Origin: Natrarchaeobius oligotrophus
GTDB taxonomy: Archaea; Halobacteriota; Halobacteria; Halobacteriales; Natrialbaceae
DNA: 57,723 nucleotides
Direction: 5' to 3'
Assembly: GCF_003841465.1 (NCBI RefSeq)
Contig: NZ_REFZ01000020.1
Location: 1-57,723 of the forward strand
This document shows positions 8,740-37,639 of the stretch, one piece after another; within the stretch, counting starts at the first letter, position 1, and every line of letters begins with the position of its first letter. The translations under genes were made by a program, and so were the position numbers. The notes beneath the pieces are model-generated. The model was not told the DNA's origin, searched no databases, and was given only the letters and a program-made list of their open reading frames with translations.

Positions 8740-9921
8740 GTGACAGACGTACTGTTGATCGTGGGACTTCTCGTCGCGGTCTTCGTCGGCTACAACATCG
8801 GCGGCGCGACGACCGGGCCGGCGTTCGGACCGGCCGTCGGAGCCAACGTGATCACCAAGCTGATGGCGGCGGCGCTCATGTCGGTGTTTTTCTTCCTCGG
8901 CGCGATCACCATCGGACCGCAAGTCGTCGACACCCTCGGCAGAGAGCTCGTCACCGACACCGCGATCTTCACGACGCGCGCGAACGTCGCCGTCCTCTTT
9001 TTCATCGGCGGCGCGCTGTTCCTCGGCAACTACGCTGGCGTCCCCGCGTCGACGTCGATGACCGCGGTCGGCGCGATCGCCGCGCTCGGACTCGCAACCG
9101 GCGAACTCGACTTCGCGGTGCTCGGCGAGATCGTCGTCTGGTGGATCGTCGCACCGATCGTCGGCTTCTGGGTCGCCGGCGTCATCGGTCGGTACTTCTA
9201 TCCGCGGATCAACGAGTGGATCGCCATCGAAGGCAGTCGGGACGGACGGCAGATGGTCACCGTCGATCGATCGTCGGGCGTGCCGCGGCTCCGATTCGGC
9301 GATGACGCCGACAGACGCGAGATTACGGGTGCACTCGTCGTCGTCGGCATCGGCTGTCTGATGGGCTTTTCGTCGGGAACGAGCAACATCGCCAACGCCA
9401 TCGCTCCGATCTACGGCACCGGCGAGATCGACATGATCCCCTTGATTCTGCTCGGCTCGGTCGCAGTCGCCGTCGGCTGTTTCACGATCGCCCGCCGGAC
9501 GCTCGACACGCTCGGCAACGACATCACGAACCTTCCGCTGACGGCGGCGATCGTCGTCGCCGTCATCAGTTCGACGATCGTCATCGGCCTTTCGTACGTC
9601 GGCATCCCCGCGAGCTTCGTCGTCATCGCGACGATGAGCATCATCGGCCTCGGCTGGGGACGGGCGACGCGAACGACGCGCATCTCCGACGCCGCCCGCG
9701 GCGAGGAGACGCACGTCTCCGTCGGCGCGCTCACCGCCGAGGAGGAGGGCGAAACGCCGCCGGAAATCGGCGAGGAAGATCCCGCTGACATCCCGAAAGC
9801 CTCCGACCTGTTCGACCCCTCGACGACCGCCCGCGTCATCCTGATGCAGAACGTGGTCCCGATCGTCTCGACCGTCGGGGCGTTCCTCACGTTCCGGTAC
9901 GTCCCGGTCTTCGGCTTCTGA
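8740..9921 (+). CDS. PiT-family inorganic phosphate permease
   Basis: 393 residues with about ten hydrophobic helices in two homologous halves. The duplicated PiT signature appears as GYNIGGATTGPAFGPAVGA near residue 20 and as GFSSGTSNIANAIAPIYGTG near residue 210. AGVPASTSMTAVGAI and TAAIVVAVISST are conserved transport helices. The central cytoplasmic loop (about 300-355) is acidic and hydrophilic. It likely cotransports phosphate with Na+ or H+. The start is GTG 8740 (VTDVLLIVGLL), as no ATG precedes helix 1. Its TGA is the first codon of a short repeat (9919-9956). Confidence 0.92.
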   Translation: MTDVLLIVGLLVAVFVGYNIGGATTGPAFGPAVGANVITKLMAAALMSVFFFLGAITIGPQVVDTLGRELVTDTAIFTTRANVAVLFFIGGALFLGNYAGVPASTSMTAVGAIAALGLATGELDFAVLGEIVVWWIVAPIVGFWVAGVIGRYFYPRINEWIAIEGSRDGRQMVTVDRSSGVPRLRFGDDADRREITGALVVVGIGCLMGFSSGTSNIANAIAPIYGTGEIDMIPLILLGSVAVAVGCFTIARRTLDTLGNDITNLPLTAAIVVAVISSTIVIGLSYVGIPASFVVIATMSIIGLGWGRATRTTRISDAARGEETHVSVGALTAEEEGETPPEIGEEDPADIPKASDLFDPSTTARVILMQNVVPIVSTVGAFLTFRYVPVFGF

Positions 9922-9956
9922 TAGGGAGTATCGTAGAAGTCCATAGATTTCCAGTG
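9919..9956 (+). repeat. Repeat family C (TGATAGGGA), copy 1
   Basis: TGATAGGGAGTATCGTAGAA...TTTCCAGTG begins on the stop codon of the phosphate permease. A related copy begins on the stop codon of the MoxR gene at 35803. Shared blocks are TGATAGGGA, CGTA and TTTCCAGTG at equal spacing. Confidence 0.5.
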
Positions 9957-10326
9957 ATGAACCGAGACACGGTGTCGAAGAACCGACTTCGAAACCGCCG
10001 GTTGGCTACGATAACCCCTATGAGACGAACTGCTGTCGACCGTCTACCGTGGGCCGCAAACGGACGTCGGTCCCACGGGCAACGACCGGCAGCAGTCGCT
10101 CGACGGGAAGCGATTTCGAAACGATCCCCGCGCCGTCTCGGTCCACTGGGTGGTCGACCACCGACCTCGAGCGACCGATTCGTTTCGATTGTTCGCTTCT
10201 CGTTACGTGCTCTCATTTGTCTAGGTACGTCTCCGCCAGTCTCGTGGTGACTTTCCAATTATTCCTTAAAAACGATTGAGGACTGAACAGCAAGCTATAC
10301 CAGTGCGGGACGTGAATCGTCGGGTG
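9922..10326. other. Intergenic region with repeats and the ferredoxin promoter
   Basis: This 405-bp stretch holds most of repeat C copy 1, hairpin repeat A copy 2 (10022-10079), and an AT-rich tract CCTTAAAAACG at about 10263-10273, which is the likely TATA box of the ferredoxin gene with a short leader. No gene seen. Confidence 0.55.
10022..10079 (+). repeat. Hairpin repeat family A, copy 2
   Basis: GAGACGAACTGCTGTCGACC followed by the stem CCGTGGGCCG...CGGTCCCACGG. The stem bases differ from the other copies but still pair across the loop, so the change looks compensatory. Confidence 0.6.
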
Positions 10327-33119: not shown

Positions 33120-34582
33120 TGTCGCTCGCCGGTCCGCGCCTCGACCGCCCGTCGGCGATCGGCGACGAGGGGCGACCACGGGCGACGAGCCTCGGAATCG
33201 CAACGCTCGCCGTCGTCGTCCCCGCGATCGCTGCCGGCTTCGTCGTCGGCGAGCCGACGCTGGTGACGGCGCTCGCAACCGTCGTCGGATTGGCCGTGGC
33301 GGGAATCGCGCTCCTCGAGCGATCGGGATTCGTCGAACTGTTCGTGGGTCACGCGTTCGTCGTGACGTTCGGCTCCGCGTTCGCGCTGCTGGTCGTCATC
33401 GCGCCGTTTTTCGGCACGCTCGGCGTCGCAGTTTCGGGGTTATCCCTGGCGCTTTTCGGCGTCGCGATGGCCTGGGCGGACGTCGGCGGGAGCGAACTCA
33501 CGCGAGCCGTCGTCGGCTGCGGGCTGACGTACGGCTCGCTGCTCTGTTCGTTCGTCGCCGTCGGAGTCACGGTCGGTCTCGCGGTGCTGGCGCTGGTGGT
33601 TCTGGGCGCCGTGACCGGGGCGTCGACGCCGATCGGTGCGCTCGCCGGATTCCTGCTCGTCGCGATCGGAACCGGCTGTTCGCTCGCGCTTTCGCTTCGG
33701 TTGCTTCCGTTCCGTCAACTGACCCCGCGGAGTCGACGTTCTCGCGTCGAACGGCGGCTGCGAACCGCGGGATGGACGATCGGGATTGCGACGCTCGGGG
33801 CGTTCGTTCTGCTCGTCGCGGTGGTCGGTTTGCTCGTCGCCGGCCCGCTCTCCGACGGATCGCTCGGCGTTTCGATTCTCGACGCGATCCTGTCGGCGCT
33901 CTCGTCCGTGGTCGTCGTCGGATCGGTCGCCGCGGTCGGTCTCGCCAGTCTGCTCGCGGGGGTAACGGCGGCCGGCGTCCGACTGCTCACTCGTCGACCC
34001 GGTCCCGACGCGACCCGGTGGAGCGCCGCGGTCGCCGTCGGCTTCGTGCTCGTGTGTCTCGCCGTCGCGGCGACGGTGCTGGTGTTCGCCGGCGCGGCCG
34101 TCGGCAATCCGCTGGTCGTCGTCGGCGTCGGAACGATGGCATCGGTCGTAGCCACGCTCTTGCTGGTCGGTCCGATCGCGTTCGCCGTCCTGATCGGCGC
34201 GTTCGCAGTCGGCGTCGCGCTGCGTCTGGTCCCCGACCGCGCGGGTGGACCGACGCTCGCCGCGGTCGGGCTCGTCATCGCGGCGATCGCGCTCTCGTGG
34301 CACGACCCGACGCTGACGTTCGTCTGTCTCGCCGGGAGCGCGCTCGTCTGGGACGTCTCGACGTACGGACTCGGGCTCACCGCGGAACTCGGACACCTCC
34401 CGGAAACTCGCCGTCTCGAGCTGTTCCACGGCCTGCTCTCGGTCGCCGTCGCAGTCGGCGCCGTTCTCGTCGCGATCGGCCTCCAGACGGTTCGAGGGGG
34501 GATCGCCGGAACCGCCGCGCCCATCGCGCTCGTCGCGGTCGGCGTCGGCGCGCTCGTCCTGTTGCTCCCGCTTCGCGGCTGA
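33119..34582 (+). CDS. Polytopic membrane protein of the MoxR/DUF58 operon (DUF7519-like)
   Basis: 487 residues, almost entirely transmembrane with roughly 12-13 helices and short loops, for example [36 protein letters not shown] and [14 protein letters not shown]. Its ATG overlaps the stop of the DUF58 gene (TGATG). Position and topology match the membrane gene found in haloarchaeal MoxR operons; the DUF7519 name is from memory. It has no enzyme motif. It could form the membrane platform for MoxR-dependent assembly. Confidence 0.78.
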
Positions 34583-34659
34583 CGGCTGTGCGGAGCCCGT
34601 CCGCGCCGACAGATGCCAGCGAAGCGAGGCTTCTTGAACGTCTAGCTCGACTGTCCGAT

Positions 34660-35805
34660 ATGGACGAATCGAACGTGACGCCGGAGGAGGGTTCGAGGGC
34701 CGTCCGCGCGGTTCTCGAGCGCGTCGAGGACGCCGCCGTCGTCGACCGTCGCGTGCTCCACGCGATCTTCTCGGCGATACTGGCCCGCGGACACGTCTTG
34801 CTCGAGGACGTGCCCGGAACGGGAAAGACGGTAACCGCGCGCGTCGTCGCCGAATCGATGGGCCTCGAGTTCACCCGGATCCAGTTCACGCCCGACCTGC
34901 TTCCTTCGGACGTGACCGGGTCGACGGTGTACGACGAACACGCCGGCGAGTTCGAGTTCGCGAGGGGCCCCGTCTTCTCGAACGTCGTCCTCGCGGACGA
35001 GATCAACCGCGCGCCCCCGAAGACCCAGGCGGCGCTGCTCGAGGCGATGGAAGAACGCCAGGTCAGCGTCGACGGGACGACCTACGACCTCCCTCGCCCG
35101 TTCGTCGTCATCGCGACCCAGAATCCGATCGAACAGGAGGGGACCTTCCGGCTCCCGGAGGCCCAGCGCGATCGGTTCAGCGTCAAGACCTCGCTCGGCT
35201 ATCCCGACGTCGACGGCGAGCTGGGGCTGCTCGAGCGTCGGGCGAACCGCCGGACGCTCGCCCCCAGCGTCGAGCCGGCGATCACGCCGAACTCGGTTCG
35301 CGTTCTCCAGTCGCTGACCGAGGCCGTCGAGGTCGATCGGGGCGTCAGACGGTACATCGTCGAACTCGCGCGCTCGACCCGACGAGACGAGCGGACCGAG
35401 ATCGGCGTCTCCCCCCGGGGGGTCCAGCGGGTGTTCGAAGCCGCTCGAGCGGCCGCCGTCGTCGACGGCCGGACGTACGTCGCGCCCGACGACGTCAAGC
35501 GCCTCGCGGAACAGACGATGGCCCACCGGATCGTCCTGACGACCGAAGCGACCGTCGAGGGGGTCGACGAACGCGACGTCGTCGGGGACGCCCTCGATTC
35601 GGTCGACGTTCCGGCCGTCTCGCCGGACGCACCCGGTACCGAACCGGACGAACTGGCCGAGCCGAGCGATCGGTCGAACGAGTGCGATCGGCCGTCCCGA
35701 GAACGAGCCGATTCCCTACCCGACGACGACGCGTCGGCCGGCGTCGATCCGCAACCGTGGGTGGATTCCCCCCTCGAGTCGGAGTCGGACGCGGGACCGA
35801 ACTGA
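34660..35805 (+). CDS. MoxR-family AAA+ ATPase
   Basis: 381 residues. Walker A VPGTGKT is at about residues 54-60, Walker [13 protein letters not shown] near 112, and the sensor-1 region [24 protein letters not shown] near 155; ISPRGVQ-type sensor 2 appears as [11 protein letters not shown]. MoxR ATPases insert cofactors or act as chaperones for vWA/DUF58 partners. The last ~60 residues are an acidic low-complexity tail. It follows the DUF7519-like gene after 77 bp. Its TGA is the first codon of repeat C copy 2. Confidence 0.95.
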
Positions 35806-35839
35806 TAGGGATTAGCGTAAACCCTCGTACTTTCCAGTG
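35803..35839 (+). repeat. Repeat family C (TGATAGGGA), copy 2
   Basis: TGATAGGGATTAGCGTAAAC...TTTCCAGTG starts exactly on the MoxR stop codon, as copy 1 does on the phosphate permease stop codon. It marks the left edge of the AT-rich island. Confidence 0.5.
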
Positions 35840-35857
35840 TGGCAGGTCACAGATATG

Positions 35858-35900
35858 TTGAAATCGCCGTGCAAAATATAGAGGGTGAATGCAGCACGAC
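35858..35900 (+). repeat. Island palindrome family D, copy 1 (diverged)
   Basis: TTGAAATCGCCGTGC followed by GAGGGTGAATGCAGCACGAC. The left arm AAATCGCCGTGC recurs at 37281. Confidence 0.5.
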
Positions 35901-36002
35901 GGCTCTGTTTGTTTCATACCGAAATCAGTGAACCATCCGCACACTACACGTGCGAAATGAGCGCTGAACAGCCCATCAAAAATAAAACATATTCAGAATA
36001 TC

Positions 36003-36031
36003 GTGCTGAATACACAGCGCGAATGTAGCAC
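36003..36031 (+). repeat. Island palindrome family D, copy 2
   Basis: GTGCTGAATACACAGCGC then GAATGTAGCAC. The arms GTGCT/AGCAC are exactly complementary. A nearly identical copy lies inverted at 37415-37443. Confidence 0.65.
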
Positions 36032-36159
36032 GGGCTAACTGGCGATCTGCGGGGCTAGTGATCACCAGCACAGACAGAGAATGCAACGTGATTTTCTCTG
36101 TTAGAATAATAGGATTAATAATGATGGTAGGAGAAGGTATTTATACGGGGTGTCAAAGC

Positions 36160-36414
36160 ATGGGCGCAAATAAAATACCGAATAAGGCCGATAGCAGTGA
36201 GGAATTGTATGAATGTCGAAATTGTGGTGAAAATCTTCCAAAAGACGTTGATGAATGCCCTAACTGTAACCGGCAAGAGGTTGCGTACTACGTATTGGAG
36301 ATGGGCAGTAGTGAAGAATTGTACGAATGTCGAAATTGTGGTGGAAAATATACGATGAATTTTAATAACTGTCCTAACTGTGGCCGGCAAGAGATTGCAT
36401 ACTATCGATTCTAA
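36160..36414 (+). CDS. Tandem zinc-ribbon protein, AT-rich, internally duplicated
   Basis: 84 residues from ATG 36160 (MGANKIPNKAD). Two 38-residue units each begin SSEELYECRNCG and end CPNC.RQE(V/I)AYY, so each has a C-x2-C...C-x2-C zinc-ribbon knuckle. The units are nearly identical at DNA level over long stretches (36194 on and 36308 on, 114 nt apart), which implies a recent duplication. Codons use A/T at third positions far more than neighbours, suggesting transfer. Upstream in-frame starts at 36058 and 36121 exist, but a TTTATA box at about 36140 favours a later start. Likely nucleic-acid or protein binding; function unknown. Confidence 0.65.
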   Translation: MGANKIPNKADSSEELYECRNCGENLPKDVDECPNCNRQEVAYYVLEMGSSEELYECRNCGGKYTMNFNNCPNCGRQEIAYYRF

Positions 36415-36799
36415 GCGCTCTATATGGGGGATTTAGAGAAGAGGGGGGCTCTGACAGTTTCGTTATAGCCATTAGTAAGTGGCGTTCAATTGATTTTCCG
36501 ATTCAGACCCACTCTATTGGAAGAAACAATGTAATCTGCTATCTCTATCCTCTGGATCGGCCACGGCATTTATGGCAATGATCAGATAGTTCTGGTAGTG
36601 TGTGCTGAACTCAGGGCGCGAATGTTGCACGAAATCAGACTCGGTCAGCGAGGAGAGGATCAGTCAGTAGAGGTCGTAGATGTCACGCCGTAAATTGCAA
36701 GTTTCCTGTTATCTGTCAAAGCCGACGCGCTGAAGACAGCGATTTCGCGTCCTTTCCAGTGAAACAATTATCTCCTCTCCCAGCGTGCTACATATTGCC
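36415..36799. other. AT-rich non-coding stretch between island genes
   Basis: Contains palindrome copy 3 (36602-36630) and the promoter region of the cupin gene (CAATTATC near 36766). No open frame with coding character was found on either strand. Confidence 0.45.
36602..36630 (+). repeat. Island palindrome family D, copy 3
   Basis: GTGCTGAACTCAGGGCGC then GAATGTTGCAC; three or four differences from copy 2, with the terminal arms kept. Confidence 0.6.
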
Positions 36800-37144
36800 A
36801 TGATAGATGAATTAGTGGTGAAATCGTTCGAGTCACCTGATGAGACGATGGCCCTCGAGAATGCGAAAGGTGAGTGTGTACAATTGGGGGAGCGGAAGTT
36901 CTGGTTGGCAACGGCAGAACCGGGATGGAAGTTCTCCAGAGATAACGGTCCCGATATGGGAACCGAGTGGTGCCCGTCTCCACACCGTCTGTACATGCTC
37001 TCTGGACAGATGACTGTTGAAATGGAAGATGGTACCCGGAAAACACTCGAGAAAGGCGATGTCGCCTTGCTTCCACCCGGACACGATGCATGGGTGGAAG
37101 GAGACGAGCAGGTTGTGTGGTTCGAGGAAGAACTCGACGGATAA
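36800..37144 (+). CDS. Cupin-domain protein
   Basis: 114 residues. The cupin barrel is visible as WKFSRDNGPDMGTEWCPSPHRLYMLSGQMTVEMEDG (motif 1 region, one His) and KTLEKGDVALLPPGHDAWVEGDE (motif 2, with PPGHDAW). The metal-ligand set is reduced compared with classical cupins. The sequence between the Cys and His suggests a small-molecule-binding rather than dioxygenase role, but this is inference. The gene has lower GC than neighbours and sits inside the AT-rich island. ATG 36800 is chosen; a start at 36785 would add five residues. Confidence 0.8.
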   Translation: MIDELVVKSFESPDETMALENAKGECVQLGERKFWLATAEPGWKFSRDNGPDMGTEWCPSPHRLYMLSGQMTVEMEDGTRKTLEKGDVALLPPGHDAWVEGDEQVVWFEEELDG

Positions 37145-37280
37145 TTTCTCCCACAAACCTTCCTGTGACTACGTGCGTTGAATGTAGCAGAACATATTTA
37201 CTGTGATTGGCAGAACCATCGATGGTCAATACGCACGTCTAGTGAGCAGATAGTTCACCGATTCCCGCGCGAAACAAACG

Positions 37281-37317
37281 AAATCGCCGTGCTGCACTAA
37301 TGCTCCATATGCAGCAG
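37281..37317 (+). repeat. Island palindrome family D, diverged copy
   Basis: AAATCGCCGTGCTGCAC...ATGCAGCAG; the left arm equals that of copy 1 (35861 on). A further half copy GTTGAATGTAGCAG is at about 37177-37190. Confidence 0.4.
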
Positions 37318-37414
37318 TCGGTTTCTGACACCTATCCGAGAGGTAGGTAGCTGCTCCGGTAACGCCTTCGCCTATACTGAGCGATCTACACTGTTGCAAA
37401 TCGGGCAAGGTTCA

Positions 37415-37443
37415 GTGCGACATTCGCGCTGTGTATTCAGCAA
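37415..37443 (-). repeat. Island palindrome family D, inverted copy
   Basis: On the minus strand it reads TTGCTGAATACACAGCGC then GAATGTCGCAC, two or three differences from copy 2 at 36003 in opposite orientation. The two bound a segment of about 1.4 kb containing both island genes. Confidence 0.65.
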
Positions 37444-37639
37444 ATCCTATCTCTCAACTGCTGGAGAGAAGCGAAGTAAAACTATGAGCTGTGTTGCTAG
37501 TCCCTATGAGTCGTCCCGACCCGAGTCGGGACGGGGCTGCGACGTTCCGGTCGGAGCCGCCGGGACCGTTCGCGGGGCACTCGAGCGCTTGCACTCGCCC
37601 GGCCCAGCTTGATGAACGGATTCGGCGTGGGTTCGCGTG

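Follow-up and report, generated by a model that had tools for sequence, protein, structure and literature searches.

A low-GC island of Natrarchaeobius oligotrophus as a probable IS630-type carrier of an integron-like cassette array

Background

The 57,723-bp stretch of Natrarchaeobius oligotrophus DNA analysed here (the window; contig NZ_REFZ01000020.1) has a GC content of 67%, against 47% over positions 35803-37509, where the two flanks stand at 70% and 68%. This island raises the questions of where its ends lie, how it was moved and where its genes were drawn from. It is interpreted here as two layers, an IS630-type non-autonomous carrier outside and an array taken from a haloarchaeal pool of gene cassettes inside, a reading that we regard as probable.

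Results and discussion

Extent and gene content of the island

The true extent of the element was 35803-37509, a length of 1.7 kb that includes both TGA copies of the target site, and its anatomy is assigned from the alignments with very high confidence. It is bordered on one side by a MoxR-type AAA ATPase gene (34579..35805, + strand; Pfam AAA_3, 7e-64), whose TGA stop codon at 35803-35805 also makes up the left-hand half of the target duplication, and on the other by a DUF326 gene. In two sister species (G001 and G003) the homologous MoxR and DUF326 blocks were found approximately 240-270 bp apart with no island between them, so that the whole non-autonomous element (35803..37509), defined by its terminal repeats and target duplication, was missing from this locus in a comparison of the kind that a reading made from the sequence alone had proposed. 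The intergenic DNA of G001 and G003 was too diverged for an alignment with the exact insertion point of the window element.

The AT-rich island and its two genes, both described in that sequence-only reading, were confirmed, and each gene product had Pfam domain matches. Cassette 1 encodes a double zinc-ribbon protein (36124..36414, + strand; DUF7129, 2e-8, and DZR, 3e-7) whose start is ambiguous, an internal start at 36163 being equally likely as 36124. The gene contains an internal tandem duplication of 98 nt (36193-36404, approximately 79% identical) with one copy per ribbon. The suggestion that this protein serves as a DNA-binding factor of the cassette found no backing, as no tie was found and the gene is one cargo gene among hundreds. 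Cassette 2 encodes a cupin protein (36800..37144, + strand; Cupin_3, 4e-7).

The cupin unit (36602-37235) recurred in a second element of G001 (L014) with 90% DNA identity. In three genomes other than that of the window the cupin was present, beside different neighbour genes in each and always near a site or half-site of the kind described below, and the case of both island genes lying in synteny elsewhere without the palindromes, named beforehand as one that would speak against a mobile cassette, was not seen. Relatives of the cupin with approximately 40% identity were found on actinobacterial and Thermus plasmids and also in haloarchaea, and cargo of this type may cross domains, judging from these matches. 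A SnoaL-like gene formed a lone cassette in G001 and was joined with the cupin in one cassette in Natronorubrum halalkaliphilum (L013 5570-6344, L048 8405-8921), which suggests a fusion of cassettes.

The outer layer

The sequence-only reading had placed the bounds of the island at the palindromes and had proposed that two genes travel as a cassette between inverted ends, with no transposase of their own. The latter part was upheld, as no transposase was identified among the genes of the element by open reading frames and Pfam domains. The palindromes were displaced as mobile ends by IS630-type terminal repeats lying beyond them, and the pair at 36003 and 37415 was recognised as internal half-sites. 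By alignment, the outer ends of the element are the terminal repeats at 35803 and 37509, and the palindrome was rejected as the end of a mobile unit since the terminal repeats sit 66 bp outside it. These repeats (TSATAGGGAYTAGC) were found by comparing the window cupin unit with its G001 copy, where homology extended past the palindromes. The left terminal inverted repeat, or end B (35806..35836, + strand), consists of TAGGGATTAGC and a second block, TCGTACTTT, about 20 bp in, and aligned at equal spacing with the ends of an IS630 transposon and of miniature elements (MITEs). The right repeat, or end A (37476..37506, - strand), consists of TAGGGACTAGC and the second block TCATAGTTT and aligned in the same way.

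A search of 125 genomes for the terminal-repeat motif recovered MITEs of 105 bp, elements with cargo measuring 0.7 to 7.9 kb, and a transposon of 1.08 kb, which was assigned to the IS630 type because its proteins contained HTH_32/33 and DDE_3 domains. The two-block repeat TSATAGGGATYAGC-N7-YTCATAGWTT was common to the IS630-type transposons, the MITEs and five cargo elements, and the relatives in other genomes kept it at identical spacing when L120-L123 and the cargo elements were aligned. One 105-bp MITE lies in the window itself (9919..10023), with the same terminal repeats as the island and a TGA duplication at the stop codon of the upstream gene. The 3-bp flanks matched on both sides in all thirteen complete elements (13/13) and were always TGA or TCA, an agreement with a chance of about 1 in 8000 if the middle base is free. 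As the TGA duplication in the window is the MoxR stop codon, the MoxR gene remains whole. We therefore have high confidence that 35803-37509 is a non-autonomous IS630-type element, that is, a mobile insertion cassette (MIC) or a MITE with cargo. No intact matching IS630 was found in its own genome, where only a broken relative turned up.

Like known MICs and MITEs, the element has terminal repeats in common with an autonomous transposon, passenger genes, a short target duplication and no transposase; it differs in carrying as cargo an array of cassettes that has exchange sites of its own. The usual target duplication of the IS630 family is TA, in contrast to the 3-bp TGA or TCA found here. In G054 (L150-L157) an IS630 relative was present in many near-identical copies with the target CTAG and an apparent TA duplication, and by these comparisons the target duplication appears to differ between close relatives, being TA in G054 and 3 bp in the TGA/TCA group. 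In two different genera (L093 6001 and H31, NZ_CP100356.1 247612-247704), end B was observed where a hemolysin-family (CorC-like) gene ends, hinting that this position is a favoured target of the element family.

A viral origin of the element was considered and rejected, as there was no match in phage records and the exact core palindrome occurred in 0 of 2.9 million viral contigs.

A composite 95-bp site

The palindrome GTGCTGAATACACAGCGCGAATGTAGCAC at 36003-36031 was located together with its inverted copy at 37415-37443 (27/28 bases complementary), an internal copy at 36602-36630 and diverged copies at 35869 (+) and 37289-37317 (-), in agreement with the repeats first noticed in the sequence. 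A genome search for the 28-mer with up to three mismatches, one of the checks proposed with that first description, returned 28 occurrences in four genomes of the genus and none for the reversed control, an excess well above what chance would give. Palindrome pairs were inverted at exactly 66 bp in 16/17 cases. The full site was 95 bp long and comprised two imperfect palindromes of 29 bp, inverted and set at a constant start-to-start distance of 66 bp, with a conserved 37-bp spacer, and on this alignment GTGCTGAATACACAGCGCGAATGTAGCAC is read as one half of the composite site.

One complete site lies between the two genes of the island (36537..36630, + strand; R1 E values of 7.9e-15 in its own genome and 1.5e-15), with palindrome 2 inverted, followed by the 37-bp spacer and palindrome 1. 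The remaining copies are half-sites. A palindrome 1 opens cassette 1 (35996..36031, + strand; R1 model 60-95) and a palindrome 2 with spacer closes cassette 2 (37289..37348, + strand; R1 model 1-60). The cargo elements carry one palindrome 66 bp inside each end. In the window the one of end B is a palindrome 2 that retains 15 bp of spacer (35854..35897, - strand; R1 model 1-44), and the one of end A, on the right, is a palindrome 1 (37415..37450, - strand; R1 model 60-95), each at this distance of 66 bp. Based on the R1 model matches in the window, the order of the cargo is half-site, zinc-ribbon gene, full site, cupin gene and half-site, and each cassette lies between palindrome 1 (+) and palindrome 2 (-), in the manner of the inverted sites of dif modules.

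Covariation was seen between the inner arms of the palindrome pair over 150 sites, with 156 two-sided cells compared to 92 +/- 7 after shuffling and 48-66 when the partners were slid, and as single-stranded DNA two full sites folded better than 199/200 shuffles. The covariation and folding would fit a folded single strand, as in attC, and equally inverted protein-binding arms that are copied together. A comparison with known RNA families gave a single chance match below the family cut-off and was discarded.

Distribution of sites and arrays

The 95-bp site was identified with the site model (E up to 1e-6) in 117/125 Natrialbaceae genomes and in 237/391 genomes of the haloarchaeal class. These whole-genome counts come from a search that scored part of its candidates, and the densest genome searched, G020, held at least 150 sites. 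Sites were approximately 60% identical to one another and occurred in runs of up to twelve, arranged head-to-tail. In 860 kb of DNA around sites, a sample picked by site density with orientation ignored in the choice, adjacent full sites separated by under 2.5 kb had the same orientation in 143 cases versus the opposite orientation in 8. The intervals between sites had a median length of 1.04 kb and a GC content of 53%, and the longest open reading frame followed the direction of the site in 42/88 decided intervals, which is random.

Exchange points and alternative explanations

Breakpoints were determined from cassettes recurring in different arrays as the change-point where identity rises above the per-column site background. 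An insertion sequence in palindrome-1 centres was removed before the count, having inflated the histograms. Of 33 non-redundant junctions, fifteen fell in palindrome 2, fifteen in palindrome 1 and none in the spacer interior (columns 30-62), with the remaining three at columns 63, 97 and 105. These calls carry intervals of several bases, and their resolution is limited because the palindromes are more conserved than the spacer. In a typical junction the outer half of the recipient, TGCTGAATACA, was kept and the inner half, GCGCGAATGTNGCAC, arrived with the cassette.

Three pairs of sister genomes had collinear flanks around different cassettes between identical half-sites. In the comparison of L277 (G111) with L352 (G114), 1.4 kb at 96% identity ran into palindrome 1. 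Beyond it one genome had two cassettes over 2.8 kb where the other had 0.5 kb occupied by a different cassette, and identity of 94% then restarted within a few bases of the palindrome-2 centre. The collinear flanks and different contents of this pair indicate that cassettes were replaced at a fixed locus. Taken together, these alignments give high confidence that cassette exchange happens at the palindromes.

The removed insertion sequence encodes a transposase (284-aa frame) and lies within palindrome-1 centres with an apparent 8-bp duplication, AGGGCGCG (L205 15432-16395, with copies in L194-L197, L199, L208 and L210).

The 95-bp site could also be a mere abundant repeat at which ordinary homologous recombination shuffles cassettes with no dedicated enzyme. 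The abundance of the sites, their identity of about 60% and the failure to find a linked recombinase favour this explanation, but the identity between sites is low for homologous recombination, 0/33 exchange points were inside the conserved 37-bp spacer while 30/33 were in palindromes, and the restart of identity in L277 and L352 so close to a palindrome centre is similarly difficult to accommodate. We therefore consider it unlikely.

A REPIN-, ERIC- or PATE-like identity of the 95-bp unit, with mobilisation by a Y1 (RAYT/IS605) transposase and incidental genes between copies, is considerably less plausible. Two inverted palindromes around a short spacer, many copies and covarying arms would be expected of such elements, and near-terminal palindromes are a hallmark of haloarchaeal PATEs (PMC3119063). 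Against this, sister species differed in the DNA between half-sites and did not differ in the 95-bp unit itself, neighbouring copies were co-oriented (143 versus 8), and breakpoints fell inside the palindromes as opposed to outside them. Furthermore, a Y1 transposase (PF01797) was absent from the genome of the window (G000) and from G020, and was present in eight other genomes searched; its absence from G020, the densest, led us to set aside an IS605/REPIN origin.

We give even less credence to the palindromes being operator or promoter sites of a regulon with the arrays as sets of co-regulated genes. Palindrome 1 was located 100-200 bp upstream of a gene in the window and at several other loci, as such sites might be, whereas gene orientation relative to the site was random (42/88) in spite of the co-orientation of the sites, and swapped cassettes had common breakpoints in the palindromes. 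An origin of the island as ancient AT-rich debris whose repeats arose by coincidence, which its structure and low GC alone might have allowed, is refuted by the terminal repeats, the target duplications, a second element holding the cupin unit at 90% identity and the absence of the island from the orthologous locus, and is hardly credible.

Search for the recombinase

An 11-bp arm, a central spacer and a second 11-bp arm are the layout of tyrosine-recombinase core sites, and each 29-bp palindrome could be divided into an 11-bp arm, a 7-bp centre and an 11-bp arm. Because of this 11-7-11 layout and the exchange in or near the palindrome centre, a tyrosine-type recombinase is the candidate, and the chances that a dedicated one acts at the palindromes are about even.

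An array-start motif, GTTGAAACCCT-N-GTGATAGG-N-palindrome 1, was conserved at 18 places (L205 15378, L259 11310, L273 8832, L277 8222 and 14 others) and is possibly a primary attachment site. The genes upstream of the 18 array-start motifs differed, and no recombinase was consistently linked to the arrays. An XerC-like tyrosine recombinase (L277 7191-8204) was located 15-17 bp upstream of an array start and a paralog (L212 3510-4517) at an array end, both of which are candidate enzymes. Their family was present in 361/391 genomes, and among 30 close relatives only a few others had weak half-site matches nearby. These two loci were not counted as evidence of a linked integrase, the family being near-universal in Halobacteria.

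Comparison with known cassette systems

The arrays resemble integrons in being head-to-tail, in holding mostly unrelated accessory genes, in sites that are imperfect inverted repeats of about 95 bp, share one orientation and might fold, and in cassettes that recur beside different neighbours. No linked IntI was found beside the arrays. Unlike in integrons, gene orientation was mixed (42/88) where integron cassette genes are mostly in one orientation. The R'' and R' boxes of attC (RYYYAAC...GTTRRRY) were found in 0/150 sites. The 95-bp site behaves in an integron-like way, yet is not an integron site. A survey of archaeal integrons did not mention Halobacteria or haloarchaea (PMC9668308).

The dif (pdif) modules of Acinetobacter plasmids are similar in that their genes lie between inverted sites, each about 28 bp long and built of two arms around a variable centre. 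Insertion sequences target pdif sites (PMC10132070), and here also an insertion sequence sits in the site, at palindrome-1 centres, in a manner reminiscent of IS1202-family elements at pdif sites. The present sites differ in length and layout, with 29 bp and a 7-bp centre (11-7-11) compared to the 28-bp XerC/XerD site (11-6-11), in being paired at the fixed 66-bp spacing with a conserved spacer, and in being spread across an archaeal class, in chromosomes as well as plasmids. REPINs and PATEs, including the PATEs of H. walsbyi with their near-terminal palindromes (PMC3119063), share paired or near-terminal palindromes and an intergenic location, and lack the co-oriented arrays and the exchange of inter-site DNA found here.

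Neither the core palindrome strings in a haloarchaeal context nor haloarchaeal integron-like arrays were described in the papers that the literature search listed. The novelty of the arrays is provisional, as this search covered open papers.

Proposed explanation

The two-layer reading draws on the anatomy, the tandem arrays, the breakpoints and the replacement at orthologous loci, which the DNA comparisons bear out directly. In its outer layer a transposase supplied from elsewhere would move the element, and the insertion would have taken place at the TGA that ends the MoxR gene. The cargo would be a two-member array drawn from a pool of gene cassettes extending across the haloarchaea, each cassette extending between the midpoints of successive palindromes, and recombination within the palindromes would account for the gain, loss and exchange of cassettes. 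A tyrosine-recombinase-like enzyme is proposed to cut at the palindrome centre, given the 11-bp arms and 7-bp centre, a layout like that of Xer/dif and integron core sites.

Conclusions

Haloarchaea swap genes freely, and an integron-like cassette store has not been described for them in the open papers covered by the search. The wider proposition is that of a class-wide archaeal cassette system independent of integrons, in which a bipartite 95-bp site and a hypothetical archaeal recombinase would allow single genes to be stored and swapped on chromosomes and plasmids, while IS630-type elements would ferry short arrays between loci and species; for this we judge the arguments to be evenly balanced. 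If the sites are indeed what they resemble, most haloarchaeal genomes would hold exchange sites, some genomes more than 100, with small accessory genes between them. This would provide a concrete route for haloarchaeal gene turnover and a marker for adaptive genes, a new site-specific recombination system that could be purified and put to use, and a direct comparison for the origins of integrons and dif modules.
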